54,442 nt of DNA. Source: Myxococcaceae bacterium. GTDB lineage: Bacteria; Myxococcota; Myxococcia; Myxococcales; Myxococcaceae. Made by a program: the position numbers and the translations under genes. Below, in pieces: positions 697-12,612 of the stretch; the stretch's first letter is position 1, and the number at the start of each line of letters is the position of its first letter. The notes under the pieces were generated by a model. The model was not told where the DNA came from. It made no database searches and was given only the letters and a program-made list of their open reading frames with translations. The stretch spans positions 1 to 54,442 of the forward strand of contig JADGHL010000020.1 in assembly GCA_019686135.1 (NCBI GenBank). Reading direction: 5' to 3'.

Positions 697-1359
697 ATGA
701 CGAAGACCTTGATCACCGCTGCTGCGACCGTGCTGATGCTCGCGTGCGGAGGAATGCCAGACGATGCCGGGGCGGTGGACGGGGCCATTATCGGCCAGGC
801 GGCACCTGCTTCGGGTTCCGCGGCCGCCAGCGACGCAAGCTCGGGCGAAGAGCTGAAGTCGAAGAAGAGCGACTCCACGCGGGACACGACGCAGACGCAG
901 CTGAAGGTGAAGAAGAAGCCGGTCGCGGGGCAGGGTGGCACCGGCAGCAGCGGGCCCGATCCGGGCACCGCTACGACGTACGCGACACGCACCACCGACG
1001 TCGTCGAGCCGGGCATCGCGCCGACGTGGAAGACGAGCTTCGCGATCGCGGAGACCTGGAGCGTGGAGATCGCCACGGACGTTCCGGCGTCGAGCGCCGG
1101 CCACCACGTGCTGGACGTCTACGTGTACTCGCCGAGCGGCGCGACCTACGAAGCTTTCACCGTGCGCTTCGCCGCGGGCGCGCCGGCGGGTGCGGACGAG
1201 ATCGAGGCCGAAGACCTCGGTACGGGCTATCGCGTCTGGGTGTCGCTGCCGGTGATCGGGACCTTCATCGACAGCTATCACCTGGCGGGTGGTTGGAAGG
1301 CGGACAGTTGGATCGACGGCGCCGGCCCGAGGAGTTCCGCGGAGTTCCAGCTTCAGTAG
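697..1359 (+). CDS. Putative lipoprotein with C-terminal beta-type domain (paralogue of 1808-2320)
   Basis: Predicted lipoprotein of 220 residues. The ATG at 697 is chosen because GAGGGAGA lies just upstream and because it gives a clean signal: MTKTLITAAATVLMLAC, a lipobox ending at Cys17. A low-complexity Ser/Ala/Lys linker (about 25-90) precedes a globular C-terminal part. That part contains VLDVYVYSPSGATYE and ends in IDSYHLAGGW followed by a short strand, which matches the end of the lipoprotein at 1808-2320. Function is unknown. It heads the PqqD/peptide/HprK locus, but 158 bp and an inverted repeat separate it from the next gene, so it may be a separate transcript. Confidence 0.75.
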   Translation: MTKTLITAAATVLMLACGGMPDDAGAVDGAIIGQAAPASGSAAASDASSGEELKSKKSDSTRDTTQTQLKVKKKPVAGQGGTGSSGPDPGTATTYATRTTDVVEPGIAPTWKTSFAIAETWSVEIATDVPASSAGHHVLDVYVYSPSGATYEAFTVRFAAGAPAGADEIEAEDLGTGYRVWVSLPVIGTFIDSYHLAGGWKADSWIDGAGPRSSAEFQLQ

Positions 1360-1395: not shown

Positions 1396-1517
1396 CTAAG
1401 GTAGGAGAAACACTCAGATTTTGAACTGAAATCGTGCTCGCTTGAGTGGTGCCCGACGCGGTTCTCCGTTACTCTGGAGCCCGTGCGGGCACACTGCTTT
1501 TTTCTGCCGAGGATCGC

Positions 1518-1811
1518 ATGAGGTTCTCGGCACGGACGATCCCCAAACGGGTCGAAGGGACGGACGGCAGCCCGCTGGGCGCCGAGTTCGTAGTGCTCGA
1601 TGCGCCGGGACGCATCGTGCGTGGCCTCAATCCGACCGGCGCGCGCATCTTCAATCTCTGTGACGGGCGCAACTCCGCCGAGCAGATTGCCCGGACGATC
1701 GCCGCGGAGTTCGATGCCGATCTGACCACCGTTCTTCCCGACGTCCTCGGATTCCTCGAGGCGCTCGGAGCCCGCGGGTTGATCGTCCCGCGCGCGGAGG
1801 GCGTCCCATGA
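1518..1811 (+). CDS. PqqD-like peptide chaperone (RiPP recognition element fold)
   Basis: A 97-residue protein that fits the PqqD family throughout: an N-terminal stretch, then VVLDAPGRIVRGLNPTGARI, CDGRNSAEQIARTIAAEF, and a C-terminal helix ending EALGARGLIV. In characterised systems PqqD-type domains bind the leader of a ribosomally made peptide and deliver it to a modifying enzyme. The ATG at 1518 is preferred over an upstream GTG at 1446 because the family begins here and CGAGGA lies 6-7 nt upstream. Its stop overlaps the next start (ATGA), so it is translated together with the lipoprotein at 1808. A peptide and an HprK-like kinase lie 3 kb downstream on the same strand. No PQQ synthesis gene is present, so a role in PQQ is unlikely. 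Confidence 0.8.
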   Translation: MRFSARTIPKRVEGTDGSPLGAEFVVLDAPGRIVRGLNPTGARIFNLCDGRNSAEQIARTIAAEFDADLTTVLPDVLGFLEALGARGLIVPRAEGVP

Positions 1812-2320
1812 GCATGCTTCTGAGAACTCTCGCCGTGGCGGCGTTCGCGCTGGTCGCGTGCGATGCGTACCGGCCCCCTGCGCTGCCCACGAGCAACGTC
1901 GAGACGGCGCCGCCCGATCCGCTCCCCGACGTGGAAACCCCTGCGCCGATCTCGCCGGAGGTCCAGCCGGTTCCGCCCGCGCCGGTGCAGACGCAGCTGA
2001 CCGTGACCGGCGACGTCTCGGTGGATCCGCCGGACGCGCCGACGTTGCACGAGGCGAACGCGATCACGCTGCGCTATGGCCTGGTCGGGGCACGGGGCAC
2101 GCACCAGCTGCGCCTCGAGCTGAAGACGCCGGCGGGGGCGGCCTACCAGGTGTTCGAGCGGGAGATCGACGCGGAGCCGAACACGGAGGCGGTCGCGGAG
2201 TTCGAGCTGCCGGTCGCGGGCACCGTGATCGACACGTACAACCTCGCGGGCGTGTGGACCGCGCACCTCTTCTTCGATGGGCGCGAGCTGACCACGCGCA
2301 CCTTCGAGCTTCAGCCGTAG
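1808..2320 (+). CDS. Putative lipoprotein, paralogue of 697-1359
   Basis: 170 residues starting MSMLLRTLAVAAFALVAC, a lipoprotein signal with lipobox LVAC (Cys18). A Pro-rich linker (about 20-60) leads into a predicted beta-sandwich-like domain. The C-terminus, GTVIDTYNLAGVW then a strand and FELQP, closely parallels GTFIDSYHLAGGW and FQLQ in the lipoprotein at 697, so the two are probably duplicates. The start overlaps the PqqD stop by 4 nt, and the propeller gene follows after 11 nt; these three form one tight operon. Likely anchored in the outer or inner membrane facing the periplasm. No known function; a partner or carrier of the secreted propeller protein is an inference from linkage only. 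Confidence 0.78.
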   Translation: MSMLLRTLAVAAFALVACDAYRPPALPTSNVETAPPDPLPDVETPAPISPEVQPVPPAPVQTQLTVTGDVSVDPPDAPTLHEANAITLRYGLVGARGTHQLRLELKTPAGAAYQVFEREIDAEPNTEAVAEFELPVAGTVIDTYNLAGVWTAHLFFDGRELTTRTFELQP

Positions 2321-2331
2321 GAGCCACTCGA

Positions 2332-4497
2332 ATGCGCGCGCACTTTCATCGGGCGGTGATCGTCGCCTTCGCCTGCGCCGCCGGCAGCGCGTGGGCGGAT
2401 CACACCATCAACGTGGATGGTTCGAACTCGGACTGGTCCGGTATCAGCACCTGCATCCCGGAGCCGTCCAGCGACGGCCAGGGCGGCGTCGACCTCGATC
2501 GCACGTGCGTGACCAACGACAACGCCTCGGGCGATCAAGGGAAGCTGTACATGCTGTTCGAGGCGACGAAGAACTTCCCTAACCAGAACCTGTACATCGG
2601 CTTCGCCATCGATCTGGACAACGACGGCATGATCACCTCGGGCCACGACGAGGTCTACGCCGTCTACTACCAGAACAAGAACAGCCCGGTGCTCCAAGTG
2701 TTTGACGCGCAGACCTACACCTACAAGAGGCAGTACACCTCGAAGTCGAGCTGCGGCGGGACGTCCACCTCCGACGGCTGGTCCGAGAAGAAGAGCGGGC
2801 AGGTCGCCGAGTTCGGGATCAGCTACGGCTGCCTCCGGTTCAACGCGAGTGGCTCGGGGCGGCAGTACGGCTCGGACATCGGTCCGTTCATGATGGGCGT
2901 CTACCCGAACTTCGATCTCACCGACGAGGTCTACTACGACGGCACGGCGGACGTGCTGGTGACCTCGGCGACGCCGGCGATCTACCCCGCGTTGACCGCG
3001 CGGTCCGGTCAGGTCCGGCTGTTCTGGACGAATCCGGTCGACCACGCGGGCACGTTGATCGTCCGGAGCGAGGTGCCGTTCACCACGTTCGACTTCGTTC
3101 CCTCGAACGGAACGGCCTACACGCAGGGCGACACGATCCAGCGCCTGGATTTGTCCCACTGGCCGTGGACCGTCCGCGAGTTCAAGATCGTCTTCGCTGA
3201 ACACCAGGGACAGAGCACGTCGTTCACCGATACGACCGTCACCGACGGCACGCGCTACTACTACAAGGTGTTCAACCACCGCGCCGGCTACATCTACGCG
3301 TCCGGGGACACGCCCGTCCCAGGCGGGTTGTTCGCCGAACCCCGGTCGTCGACGAGCGGCGGGCCGCTGTGGTGCTACTCGTCGAGCTTCACGTCGCTGC
3401 AGCAGCCGCTCGTGGAGGCGGGAGCGGGCGTGTTCACGTCGGGCAACGGTGGCGTGCTGCTGGGGCTGCGGACCGCGCCGGGACAGGCAAACGACGGGGA
3501 CGAGCTCTTCCGGCCGACCTCGCTGGGCGGGGCGATCCAGGCGCGCTTCCCGATCGTTCCGCTGCATGGCCGGAGCGGGAAGTACATCCTCACCGGCACG
3601 CAGAACGGGACCGTGGCCGCGGTGAACACCGCCACCGGCGTTCCGCTGTGGAAGGTGCCCGGGTCGACCTTCGGCGGGAACCAGGTGCTCTCGTACGTGT
3701 CCGCGCAGCTGTACGACTACACGAACCCCAACATCCCCGCGGGCGCGGCGTTCCGCGCGGCGAACCCCGGGCGCGATCTGATCTTCGTGCCCACACGGGT
3801 CTCCGGCACGTCGAACACGTACAAGGTCGTGGCGCTCTCGGGCGTGGACGGATCCGTCGTGTGGCAGAGCGGGAACATGTCGCCGATCTTGGGCGGCATC
3901 ACGGTCGACTACCCGACCAACCGCCTCTATGTGCCGACCGCCACGAACTCCTCTGGGTCGCTGAAGATCCTTTCGTCGCTCACCGGCGCGCAGGTCGGCA
4001 CGCTCAGTGTGGGATCGGTGAAGTATGGCGTCGTGAAGGCGAACGACGGGACGCCGTCCGGAGAGCTCGTGGTGGTCAACGACAGCGGCACCGCATACGG
4101 CTTCAATCTCGGATGGACGACCAGCCCGCCGGCGCCATCGTGGTCGGGGTCGATCGGCGGCGCGCCCGTGAGCTTCCCGCTGCCTGTCCCGAGCGGGTTC
4201 CTGGTGGCGACCAGCAGCGCGGTGAAGCGCTTTGCGATCTCGGGCACCAAGGCGACGCAGGTGTGGTCGAGGTCCGTGACCAACTCGTCCGGCCCCTGGC
4301 TGCACTACCAGAACGAATACGTCTGGGTGGGCAGCTCGGACCTGAAGGTCCACGGGATCACCTACGCGAGCGGCACGGACAACAAGACGGTGACCGCCCC
4401 GGGTAGCCGCCCCGGAATGCCGAACATCGACACCACGACCAACCGGCTGGTGGTGGGGCTCGAGGATGGCCGGGTGTGCGCTTTCGCGCTCCCCTGA
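2332..4497 (+). CDS. Secreted protein with PQQ/WD40-type beta-propeller
   Basis: 721 residues. The ATG at 2332 gives a Sec signal peptide (MRAHFHRAVIVAFACAAGSA, cleavage near WA-D). Residues about 25-210 look like a carbohydrate-binding or DOMON-like beta domain with many Asp/Asn residues (DLDNDGM). About 220-330 resembles a fibronectin-type module. From about 390 onward PQQ-type repeats are visible, such as GTVAAVNTATGVPLWKV and YKVVALSGVDGSVVWQS, which form a propeller blade each. Cysteines are few. It follows the second lipoprotein by 11 nt. Propellers of this kind bind proteins or ligands; they need not hold PQQ. Its place between the PqqD-like gene and the peptide gene suggests an extracellular partner, but that is inference. 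Confidence 0.75.
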   Translation: MRAHFHRAVIVAFACAAGSAWADHTINVDGSNSDWSGISTCIPEPSSDGQGGVDLDRTCVTNDNASGDQGKLYMLFEATKNFPNQNLYIGFAIDLDNDGMITSGHDEVYAVYYQNKNSPVLQVFDAQTYTYKRQYTSKSSCGGTSTSDGWSEKKSGQVAEFGISYGCLRFNASGSGRQYGSDIGPFMMGVYPNFDLTDEVYYDGTADVLVTSATPAIYPALTARSGQVRLFWTNPVDHAGTLIVRSEVPFTTFDFVPSNGTAYTQGDTIQRLDLSHWPWTVREFKIVFAEHQGQSTSFTDTTVTDGTRYYYKVFNHRAGYIYASGDTPVPGGLFAEPRSSTSGGPLWCYSSSFTSLQQPLVEAGAGVFTSGNGGVLLGLRTAPGQANDGDELFRPTSLGGAIQARFPIVPLHGRSGKYILTGTQNGTVAAVNTATGVPLWKVPGSTFGGNQVLSYVSAQLYDYTNPNIPAGAAFRAANPGRDLIFVPTRVSGTSNTYKVVALSGVDGSVVWQSGNMSPILGGITVDYPTNRLYVPTATNSSGSLKILSSLTGAQVGTLSVGSVKYGVVKANDGTPSGELVVVNDSGTAYGFNLGWTTSPPAPSWSGSIGGAPVSFPLPVPSGFLVATSSAVKRFAISGTKATQVWSRSVTNSSGPWLHYQNEYVWVGSSDLKVHGITYASGTDNKTVTAPGSRPGMPNIDTTTNRLVVGLEDGRVCAFALP

Positions 4498-4572
4498 GGA
4501 CCGGCCGACAAATCGACGGAAGAAAAGAAGTCGCAGACAATGGCCGGCGCGACCTTCGGAAGCTGAGGACCC

Positions 4573-4773
4573 TTGAAGCAGCAACGCGACGAACGACCGG
4601 GACCGGGCCAACAGCGGAGCGCGCAACCCAGCTGCGCGCCGAAGCAGCCGTATTGCAAGCCGGCGATCCTCTGGGAGCAGGAGTTCGTGGCGCTCGCACA
4701 GATCTCCAACCCGTGCACGGAACCCGGGTCCGGACCGAACTGCTTCGGGCCGGCTTTCTCCGGGCCGGAGTAG
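4573..4773 (+). CDS. Short Cys/Pro-rich peptide, candidate RiPP-like precursor
   Basis: 66 residues, TTG start at 4573. An in-frame TGA at 4564-4566 rules out a longer form, and CTGAGGA sits just upstream, although its spacing of 3-4 nt is short. The N-terminal 20 residues are polar and charged (MKQQRDERPG...). The rest has four cysteines (21, 28, 48, 57) and motifs QPYCKPAILWEQEF, SNPC and PNCFGPAFSGPE. The K-P-Y-x-KP-x-hydrophobic-x-E-x-F plus late CxxxxGxxxxC layout is like small peptides I recall from PqqD/HprK neighbourhoods. Its TAG stop overlaps the GTG of the kinase gene (TAGTG), a strong coupling sign that it is translated. It could be a modified product, a signal, or a phosphorylated substrate of the kinase. 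Ser63 near the C-terminus is a possible acceptor. Confidence 0.6.
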   Translation: MKQQRDERPGPGQQRSAQPSCAPKQPYCKPAILWEQEFVALAQISNPCTEPGSGPNCFGPAFSGPE

Positions 4774-5546
4774 TGATCCGTCACCTCCGGATCGCCGGGG
4801 TCGGTTTCGCCGTCGAATACGCCCGGGAGGAAATCTGGCCGACGATCGCCCGCGGGCTGGACGGGTTTGAGTCCGCCGCCGAGGCGAACGACATCAGGAT
4901 TCAAGTCAGCGTCGATCTCAGCCTCCACCGTTTCGAGGGCGCGCGGGCGCTCCCGGTCCGAACCGCGGACGGCCTTCGCGGAGAGGATTACGAGCTGTGC
5001 GCCGTAGGCGCCGGCTTCCGGCTCATCCAGTCCGCGGATCCGTTCCCGCTTTCTGCGGCGCTCAAGGCGCTGCTTGCGAGCGAGCTTCTGCGCCGGGGTG
5101 CCGTGCTGGTGCATGGGGTCGGCGTCGCCCGGGCTGATCGCGCCGCGCTGTTCAGCGGCCCATCTGGAGCCGGGAAGTCGACGCTCGGCTGCCACGCGCG
5201 GGCCGGCGGGCTCAGCCTGTTGGCCGACGAACTGGTGGTACTGAGGCGAGGCGAAGACGGCGCCTTCGAGGTGGAGGGAACGCCGTGGAACGTCGGCGCG
5301 CCGCGGAAGGCGACGCTGGCGGCGATCGGCGTGCTCGCGCACGCGATACGGCACCGGGTGGAGGAGGTCCCGCCCACCGAGGTCCTGCGCGTTTTGACCA
5401 CCAACATCCTTTTGCCCGCCGAAGCGGCGACGACACGCCACCAGGCGTTCGAGATCGCGCGCGCCGCGCTGGCCACGACGCGCACGGTCCGCCTCCACTT
5501 CGCGCCCGACCCGAGCGTGGTGGAGACGCTGGATCCACTGCTCTGA
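4773..5546 (+). CDS. HprK-like P-loop kinase coupled to the peptide gene
   Basis: 257 residues. Domain of the HPr serine kinase C-terminal type: hydrophobic lead-in ELLRRGAVLVHGVGVA, then Walker A FSGPSGAGKST (about 131-139), then LSLLADELVVL, which is the family's acidic metal-binding strand. It lacks the N-terminal domain of true HprK/P, and no ptsH gene is nearby, so it is unlikely to phosphorylate HPr. Short HprK-like kinases of this type occur in peptide clusters; the lasso-peptide kinase ThcoK phosphorylates a C-terminal serine of its precursor. The GTG start at 4773 shares a base with the stop of the 66-residue peptide gene, which argues that the peptide is its substrate. Last gene of the locus; it converges on miaA. 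Confidence 0.75.
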   Translation: MIRHLRIAGVGFAVEYAREEIWPTIARGLDGFESAAEANDIRIQVSVDLSLHRFEGARALPVRTADGLRGEDYELCAVGAGFRLIQSADPFPLSAALKALLASELLRRGAVLVHGVGVARADRAALFSGPSGAGKSTLGCHARAGGLSLLADELVVLRRGEDGAFEVEGTPWNVGAPRKATLAAIGVLAHAIRHRVEEVPPTEVLRVLTTNILLPAEAATTRHQAFEIARAALATTRTVRLHFAPDPSVVETLDPLL

Positions 5547-5685: not shown

Positions 5686-6597
5686 TCATCGCCCGGAGAG
5701 TGCGGCCAGCTCCGAAGCCCAATACGGCGGCTGCAGAAACCGCGCGCCCGGCTCGCGGCGGAACCACGTGAGCTGACGTTTCGCGTACCGCCGCGTCTCG
5801 CGCGCCGCCCGGGCGATGGCTTCTTCGAAGGTGAGGGTGCCGTCGAGGTGCTGCAGCGCCTGTAGGTAGCCGACGCTCTTCATGGGCGCTGCGTCGCGTA
5901 GGCCGGCCGACAGGTGCCGGCGGACCTCGTCCAGAAGCCCGCCGCGGAACATCGCTTCGGTGCGGGCGTCGATCCGGCGGTACAGCTCCTCGCGCGGAGG
6001 ATCGAGGACCACGAGATCGAACCGGTAGCGATCCTCGGCGAACCGGTGCTCGCGCCGGAACTCGGACGCGGTGGTCCCGGTGAGCTCGTAGATCTCCAGC
6101 GCGCGGACGATCCGCACCAGATCCGTGGGCTGGACCTTCGCCGCGGTCTCCGGGTCGATCGCTGCCAGACGGGCGTGCAGCGCCTGCCGGCCGATCCGCT
6201 CCGCCTCCGCCTCCAGCGAGCGGCGGAGCTCCGGGGCCGCGGGCGGCGCAGGGACGACCCCGTGCAGAAGGATGCGCAGGTACAGCCCCGTCCCGCCGGC
6301 GACCACGACCCGCTTCCCGCGCGCGGCGATCTGCGCGATCGCCTCGTCCGCCAGCGCCTGGAACCGCGCGGCGGAGAAGGTCTCGGTGGGGTCGGCCACA
6401 TCGAGCAGGTGATGCGGAACGAGCGCGCGATCGGCGGCGGTGGGCTTGGCGGTCCCGATGTCGAAGCCGCGGTAGACCTGCTGCGAGTCCGCGCTGACGA
6501 TCTCCGCGCCCAACTGCTGCGCCACTTCGATCGCAAGGGCGGTCTTTCCCGACGCGGTCGGGCCGGCGATCACGAGGAGGGCAGGGCGCTCGGACAC
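5686..6597 (-). CDS. miaA: tRNA dimethylallyltransferase
   Basis: 303 residues, the usual length for MiaA. Adds a dimethylallyl group to N6 of A37 in tRNAs that read codons starting with U, which helps codon reading. P-loop GPTASGKT near the N-terminus, then IVSADSQQVYRGFDIGTAKP and VPHHLLD, the standard MiaA motifs that bind the prenyl donor and tRNA. Later VVAGGTGLY and the C-terminal RRYAKRQLTWFR are also typical. GTG start. It lies 9 bp after the end of the FAD/receiver gene and is probably co-transcribed with it. Confidence 0.96.
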   Translation of the reverse strand: MSERPALLVIAGPTASGKTALAIEVAQQLGAEIVSADSQQVYRGFDIGTAKPTAADRALVPHHLLDVADPTETFSAARFQALADEAIAQIAARGKRVVVAGGTGLYLRILLHGVVPAPPAAPELRRSLEAEAERIGRQALHARLAAIDPETAAKVQPTDLVRIVRALEIYELTGTTASEFRREHRFAEDRYRFDLVVLDPPREELYRRIDARTEAMFRGGLLDEVRRHLSAGLRDAAPMKSVGYLQALQHLDGTLTFEEAIARAARETRRYAKRQLTWFRREPGARFLQPPYWASELAALSGR

Positions 6598-10554: not shown

Positions 10555-10640
10555 GGCCCTCTGTCGAAACTGGTAGACGAGGCGGACTCAAAATCCGCTG
10601 CGGCTGACACCGCGTCCCGGTTCGAGTCCGGGGAGGGCCA
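10555..10640 (+). tRNA. tRNA-Leu (anticodon CAA)
   Basis: 86 nt class II tRNA. Acceptor GGCCCTC (10555-10561) pairs with GAGGGCC (10633-10639), with discriminator A at 10640. Anticodon stem GCGGA/TCCGC encloses loop CTCAAAA, giving anticodon CAA for the UUG codon. A long variable arm (TGCGGCTGACACCGCG) and T arm CCCGG-TTCGAGT-CCGGG complete it. The 3' CCA is not encoded. Confidence 0.96.
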
Positions 10641-10723
10641 CTTCCGATTTCCCGTCGGCCCGGGTGTGCCGCGCTCAGGCAGTGTCGAGCGGACGCCTCC
10701 CGGGCTGCTCTGCGGGCCAGTGC

Positions 10724-12067
<1,344 letters not shown>

Positions 12068-12539: not shown

Positions 12540-12612
12540 GGGCCCGTAGCTCAGTTGGGAGAGCGCCGCAATGGCATTGCGGAGGTCGTCGGTTCGATCC
12601 CGTCCGGGTCCA
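12540..12612 (+). tRNA. tRNA-Ala (anticodon GGC)
   Basis: 73 nt. Acceptor GGGCCCG (12540-12546) pairs with CGGGTCC (12605-12611) with one G-T pair; discriminator A at 12612. D arm GCTC-AGTTGGGA-GAGC. Anticodon stem CCGCA/TGCGG around ATGGCAT gives GGC for GCC alanine codons. T loop TTCGATC. CCA is not encoded. Confidence 0.95.

Follow-up and report, generated by a model that had tools for sequence, protein, structure and literature searches.

The described systems closest to the locus considered here are the phosphorylated lasso peptide systems, namely bsf of Bradymonas sediminis and the paeninodin system, which share with it a discrete PqqD-like protein, a YxxPx[LI] leader motif at comparable spacing and, when likened by general kinase type, an HprK-type kinase, which in those systems acts on the precursor. 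They also possess a nucleotidyltransferase, which was found here in a relative from another family (G130). In Bradymonas, the kinase BsfK phosphorylates Ser3 of BsfA and is accelerated by the PqqD-like BsfB1, the bsf cluster is bordered by an FG-GAP protein, and the YxxPx[LI] motif of kinase-containing lasso leaders spans positions -17 to -12 (PMC10368454). A further study reports W/Y/L-x-x-P/L/I as the recognition sequence for PqqD, FusE, McjB and StsC (PMC12710340). The HPr-rel-A systems (TIGR04352 kinase, TIGR04353 PqqD) likewise have a kinase related to HprK in the vicinity of a member of the PqqD family. SynChlorMet (ScmA-F) and GeoRSP combine PqqD with a radical SAM/SPASM enzyme, and SynChlorMet additionally has the HprK-like ScmC, while PQQ biosynthesis (PqqD/PqqE) employs a PqqD-type carrier. 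None of the papers searched unites PqqD, HprK and a precursor peptide, and searches on SynChlorMet, HPr-rel-A, the HprK-related kinase and GeoRSP returned nothing relevant; the searched parts of the RRE-Finder paper and of a structure-based RRE paper contained no mention of the gene set described below.

The window, i.e. the whole stretch of DNA analysed (54,442 nucleotides), is the entire contig C62 of the draft genome G000 (5.5 Mb, 97% complete), which belongs to the same family as the genomes with loci named Myxococcus and Corallococcus. It contains the following features:

697..1359, forward strand: lipoprotein 1 (220 aa; lipobox MLAC; paralogue of lipoprotein 2)
1518..1811, forward strand: PqqD-like peptide carrier, a RiPP recognition element (97 aa from ATG 1518; PF05402 E 3e-16)
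1808..2320, forward strand: lipoprotein 2 (170 aa; lipobox LVAC; orthologue in the same place in 24/24 named loci)
2332..4497, forward strand: secreted propeller protein (signal peptide, N-terminal part of ~200 residues, Fn3-like segment, BamB-like propeller)
4573..4773, forward strand: precursor-like peptide (66 aa, TTG start, four Cys)
4651..4668, forward strand: Y-x-x-P-x-I leader motif of the peptide (YCKPAI; Tyr and Pro invariant in 18 sequences)
4705..4707, forward strand: Ser45 of the peptide, candidate phosphate acceptor (conserved Ser/Thr; putative acceptor role)
4714..4743, forward strand: Cys48...Cys57 of the peptide, the C-terminal Cys pair (nearly all homologues carry two Cys close to their C-terminal end)
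4773..5546, forward strand: HprK/PEPCK-fold kinase (257 aa; TIGR04352 E 2e-8, below cut-off; model pLDDT 88)
5157..5231, forward strand: kinase Walker A (GPSGAGKST, residues 129-137) to acidic pair D152-E153, from an alignment of 19 orthologues

A sequence-only reading of the window had placed a PqqD, a lipoprotein, a propeller, a peptide and an HprK-like gene here, and the sequence confirms their positions as well as the tight packing, with a 4-nt overlap (ATGA) between the end of PqqD (1811) and the start of lipoprotein 2 (1808), and 11 nt between the end of lipoprotein 2 (2320) and the start of the propeller gene (2332). Its PqqD start at GTG 1446 is probably too early: the frame is open there, but orthologues begin at a Met matching ATG 1518, which is more likely the true start. 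Lipoprotein 1, which shows 32-33% identity to lipoprotein 2 (E 1e-8), also has PqqD as its immediate downstream neighbour in G010, the nearest relative, and takes the same position in L035/L123. The GTG of the kinase overlaps the TAG of the peptide by one base. An in-frame ATG (4540), preceded by a purine-rich stretch, is located 33 bases 5' of the peptide's TTG and is followed by an interrupting TGA (4564), which leaves TTG 4573 as the sole start codon of the peptide. Either translation does begin there, or TGA 4564 arose through a recent nonsense mutation or through misassembly.

Some further features of the window were recorded. At the contig start (5-476), a 23-bp unit is repeated in tandem about 20 times. 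ARAGORN called a tRNA-Leu (10555-10641) and a tRNA-Glu (11359-11437), both unsupported by the Rfam tRNA model; the tRNA-Ala at 12540 is the sole tRNA called by both. The miaA gene that follows the kinase (5686-6597) is on the opposite strand in the window, and in most relatives on the same strand directly downstream.

When compared to the described systems, the PqqD protein clearly belongs to the broad PqqD family (PF05402, E 3e-16, 59.8 bits against a gathering cut-off of 23.4). Unlike the lasso systems, the window cassette has no cyclase in the cluster, the only strong G000 match to the asparagine-synthetase-like lasso cyclase being on contig C232 and none on C62, and the B2 leader peptidase (PF13471) has no match at E <= 0.001 in G000. 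Likewise, the core of the window-type peptide lacks Gly1, its position -2 is Ala instead of Thr/Ile, and the cassette has a conserved Cys pair as well as secreted propeller and lipoprotein partners. The lasso-specific PqqD models NF033530 and NF033536 stayed below cut-off for the window PqqD. A lasso peptide identity, which we examined by way of the B2 peptidase and the cyclase, was rejected. Both window proteins are far below the curated HPr-rel-A cut-offs, with 33.9 bits against 200 for the kinase in TIGR04352 (HprK_rel_A), a weak match at E 2e-8, and 13.3 bits against 35 for PqqD in TIGR04353; the kinase scored 11 bits against 240 in the HPr kinase/phosphatase model TIGR00679 and reached the cut-off of no curated HprK model. 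For SynChlorMet and GeoRSP all models were below cut-off, with 14 bits for ScmC (cut-off 125) and 23 bits for ScmD (cut-off 100), and the Myxococcaceae loci differ in having no radical SAM enzyme, whereas the loci of G130 and G152 are similar to these systems. The PQQ biosynthesis model TIGR03859 was also below cut-off for the window PqqD, G000 has no PqqE-like SPASM protein, and the peptide fits no precursor model.

The kinase is predicted to have a PEPCK/HprK fold. Comparison of its modelled structure (mean pLDDT 88) with known structures gave PEPCK at E 1.6e-7, with Z 13.8 over 232 residues, and HPr kinase at E 2.5e-5, with 22% identity, and a sequence search for a solved relative gave a single match at chance level. 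The P-loop, H114 (the His of HG) and D152-E153 are conserved in all 19 orthologues, in which the stretch from Walker A to the acidic pair is invariant except for the second Walker A residue.

To what extent the genes belong together can be judged from their distribution. Using tblastn, the window proteins recovered the set in relatives with its order preserved, and the window peptide alone matched the same place in 17/20 relative regions (E 1e-8 to 0.03). A peptide profile gave matches in 56/195 genomes of the phylum with E down to 1e-24; it was built from 18 of the sequences including that of the window, the remaining matches being outside the profile. The scan of 84,980 species yielded 24 loci, mostly Myxococcus, Corallococcus and Pyxidicoccus, the others being titled Citreicoccus, Archangium or simply myxobacteria and, in a single case, 'Comamonas'. 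All of them contain PqqD, lipoprotein, propeller and kinase with the gene order kept, and MiaA is located downstream in every contig that is long enough. An S24/S26 peptidase, usually in front, is present in 22 of the 24. The window locus and G010 lack it. The order S26-PqqD-lipoprotein-propeller-peptide-HprK-MiaA was found in loci of Myxococcus, Corallococcus, Pyxidicoccus, Citreicoccus and Archangium. The record titled Comamonas sp. KCTC 72670 (BNCN01000013.1, L115) has a typical Myxococcus locus and looks mislabelled.

The sequence-only reading had proposed a joint search for peptide, PqqD and HprK in Myxococcota, and had named as evidence against a common system the case that PqqD and HprK always occur without the peptide. 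Among the 45 peptide-bearing genomes searched for both peptide and kinase, 42 have the peptide on the strand of the kinase match and no more than 330 bases upstream of it, and no kinase orthologue was found in a genome lacking the peptide. The three exceptions are G022, with the kinase on another contig than the peptide, G005, with two peptide copies and no orthologous kinase, and G130, where the peptide is placed after PqqD. Most Myxococcus-type bacteria examined carry the peptide gene coupled to the kinase gene, in a single operon that also includes the genes for PqqD, the lipoprotein and the propeller, and the peptide and kinase reading frames overlap in the window and in several relatives. 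Peptide, PqqD and kinase travel together across genomes and are inherited as one unit, which upholds the proposal of one conserved system. A locus of G019 (L047; C65, 11887-13155), which has an acyltransferase gene on its upstream side, is confined to PqqD, peptide and kinase, with neither propeller nor lipoprotein, and may represent a minimal form.

The peptide itself is conserved unevenly. From the Tyr onward pN/pS is 0.35, compared to 0.83 in the N-terminal part; the second half is under purifying selection, while the N-terminal part drifts. The other objection raised beforehand, that the peptide might not be conserved, does not hold, and a chance open reading frame is excluded by conservation and codon-level selection. 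The consensus reads Y-E-P-P-A-I-L-W-E-Q-P-F-V-A-L-A-Q-x-S-x-C-x-I-P-G-E-S-E-C-x-P. Tyr and Pro of the Y-x-x-P-x-[IV] motif are invariant among the 18 peptide sequences, and a conserved Ser/Thr, Ser45 in the window peptide, follows 18 residues past the Tyr. By lasso numbering the core would start at Ile/Val and have this Ser/Thr at position 2; all homologues read keep a Ser/Thr near that position and nearly all have two Cys afterwards, the G130 peptide having one. The earlier description as a 66-residue Cys-rich peptide is right as to length and the four Cys of the window, but only the last two Cys have conserved counterparts. The assumed link between PqqD and peptide gains support from the Y-x-x-P leader motif, which according to PMC12710340 and PMC10368454 is bound by PqqD-type recognition elements. 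No NCBIfam model matched the 18 peptides and no Pfam family matched the window peptide; the gene is short, strongly conserved and undescribed. Because the core is nearly invariant, a constant role, such as a cofactor, a structural tag or a signal, is suggested rather than a fast-changing toxin, and an antibiotic engaged in an arms race is disfavoured for the same reason.

The statement of the sequence-only reading that the kinase is the only modifying enzyme visible holds for the Myxococcaceae form, but outside this family the clusters of relatives include a radical SAM enzyme. That of G130, which belongs to the same order but a different family, consists of a nucleotidyltransferase, an S26-peptidase-like open piece, PqqD, peptide, propeller, lipoprotein, kinase and a radical SAM/SPASM enzyme, the latter being 51% identical to that of G152; in G152 and G087, kinase, PqqD and peptide likewise occur together with a radical SAM enzyme. 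The missing enzyme is therefore a trait of the Myxococcaceae form and not of the whole type. An orthologue of the G130 enzyme was not found in Myxococcaceae, and no SPASM protein was detected in G000 and four finished cassette genomes of the Myxococcus/Corallococcus type, in a search that gave matches in 8/14 control genomes. A radical SAM/SPASM enzyme acting in trans was rejected for these five genomes, as both the orthologue and the SPASM domain are absent from them. The radical SAM proteins of G000 are by eye MoaA, MiaB, RimO, LipA, BioB, RlmN, QueE, KamA and similar, and besides such housekeeping-like ones there are one or two stand-alone radical SAM proteins, among them L063, with no visible tie to the cluster. 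Three large-genome relatives that carry the cassette (G050, G036, G007) have several SPASM proteins each. No transporter is visible with the cassette. As it had been read at the outset, the locus is free of radical SAM and lasso enzymes, there being no SPASM protein or lasso peptidase in G000 and no lasso cyclase with the cassette. The comparison of gene contents suggests that the Myxococcaceae form derives by reduction from a cassette with a radical SAM enzyme. Probably the ancestor additionally contained a radical SAM/SPASM enzyme and a nucleotidyltransferase, both lost in Myxococcaceae, and we infer the radical SAM loss from outgroup loci and not from a tree.

The propeller protein matches PQQ_2 (E 6e-7), and its model matches BamB (E 3e-13; Z about 30-32 over ~313 residues), so residues ~343-721 are predicted to form a BamB-like propeller behind a signal-like N-terminus. 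The model is confident mainly in the propeller part; no fold is assigned to the first ~213 residues because their pLDDT is <50. The N-terminal ~200 residues differ from those of the orthologues, which are proteins ~300 residues longer, and weakly resemble the N-terminal part of a secreted C25 protease of G087 (26%, E 9e-4 in a four-sequence comparison), which is only a lead. In G087 the locus L130 (5249-10937) is arranged as PqqD, S24/S26-type peptidase, radical SAM, peptide, HprK-like and secreted C25-family protease. That a large secreted protein repeatedly accompanies the peptide suggests that it may be in the envelope that the peptide acts. Of the peptide-modification and display system put forward previously, the conserved system stands, whereas display rests only on the accompanying secreted propeller and lipoproteins.

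A second set is present in the same genome. On contig C64 (L034, reverse strand) of G000, a PqqD, a giant secreted FG-GAP-type protein, a Cys2 peptide and an HprK-like kinase follow each other in a layout that matches that of the window cassette. The peptide, MALKPEIAPVARKKYRPPVLTTRTLTAPVLFAQSNPCPPDLPPGSCD (C64:22537-22677), carries K-Y-R-P-P-V and two Cys, and was found in 17/89 genomes (16 of the family, one of the order), mostly just upstream of a kinase match.

The explanation we prefer, to which we give about an even chance of being right, is a RiPP-like cassette reduced to a single modifying enzyme, a kinase of PEPCK/HprK fold to which PqqD presents the peptide, and whose product acts in the envelope. 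PqqD would bind the peptide via Y-x-x-P-x-[IV] and hand it to the kinase, which the overlapping stop and start codons would cause to be made in step with the peptide. The kinase would phosphorylate the conserved Ser/Thr at the core start (Ser45), much like BsfK with BsfB1 in Bradymonas. The leader might be removed by the neighbouring S24/S26 peptidase in most genomes and perhaps by another protease in the window genome, the two Cys might form a disulfide or bind a ligand, and the lipoprotein and the secreted BamB-like propeller would be the partners of the finished peptide in the cell envelope. Since changes of the Tyr, Pro and Leu of the BsfA motif did not stop phosphorylation, the motif alone is no proof of delivery to the kinase (PMC10368454). 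Against this explanation count G005 without an orthologous kinase, G022 with its kinase elsewhere, the lack of the S26 peptidase here and in G010, and the different compartments of a cytoplasmic kinase and a secreted propeller.

The radical SAM enzymes in the G130, G152 and G087 clusters also allow for a true RiPP precursor that receives its key modification from an enzyme encoded elsewhere in the genome, with the kinase being secondary or regulatory. The stand-alone L063 of G000 and the several SPASM proteins of G050, G036 and G007 would fit such a scheme, but with the cluster enzyme's orthologue absent in Myxococcaceae and zero SPASM proteins in G000 and the four finished genomes we regard it as unlikely. 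A different role of the peptide, as a small protein that regulates the kinase or PqqD or serves one of them as adaptor, would leave the lipoprotein, the propeller or another protein as kinase target. The overlapping peptide and kinase frames, the near invariance of the core, which is unlike many secreted RiPPs, and the presence of propeller and lipoprotein in all named loci agree with it. However, PqqD-like proteins are carriers of leader peptides and the peptide has their recognition motif (PMC12710340), the propeller and the lipoproteins are exported and hence away from a cytoplasmic kinase, and peptide and leader motif remain where the propeller is absent (L047, L124), which makes this role distinctly improbable.

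It would be more surprising still if the kinase-like protein were a nucleotide-binding scaffold that has lost its activity, with the Cys pair binding metal and the cassette handling metal or redox. The family score far below the HprK-related cut-offs, PEPCK as the best structural matches by E-value, and the relatives' S26-type peptidase, whose closest model, although its cut-off is not reached, is that of the Ni-SOD maturation protease, point in that direction; conservation of Walker A and the acidic pair in 19/19 orthologues argues against it. Kinase-type lanthipeptide synthetases act by phosphorylation followed by elimination, and nearly all homologues have a Ser/Thr shortly ahead of a conserved Cys, at a distance of a few residues. 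A lanthionine-like route, in which the Ser/Thr is phosphorylated, the phosphate eliminated and a Cys added to give a thioether ring, is nevertheless hardly to be expected, given that the cluster showed neither a lyase nor a LanC-like gene, that the Ser-to-Cys spacing is widely variable and that the phosphate added by BsfK, a RiPP kinase of the HprK type, stays in place (PMC10368454).

Returning to PqqD-assisted phosphorylation in a reduced cassette, a wider form of this proposal is offered tentatively, with the chances rather against it: the loci may define a RiPP class in which PqqD-assisted kinase phosphorylation is the sole class-defining modification, the product being constant and non-antibiotic, made by most Myxococcus and Corallococcus species and working in the envelope alongside a secreted propeller and a lipoprotein, the radical SAM enzyme having been lost and a paralogous peptide-kinase set in the same family following the same plan. 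If true, a nearly invariant modified peptide would have been overlooked in Myxococcus, a cultivable model in which gene knock-outs and mass spectrometry are standard methods, and a RiPP cassette could shed its radical enzyme and persist with just the kinase. HprK/PqqD pairs would then also be linked to secreted envelope proteins, the roles of which are unexplained in relatives such as those with the FG-GAP and C25-peptidase clusters.
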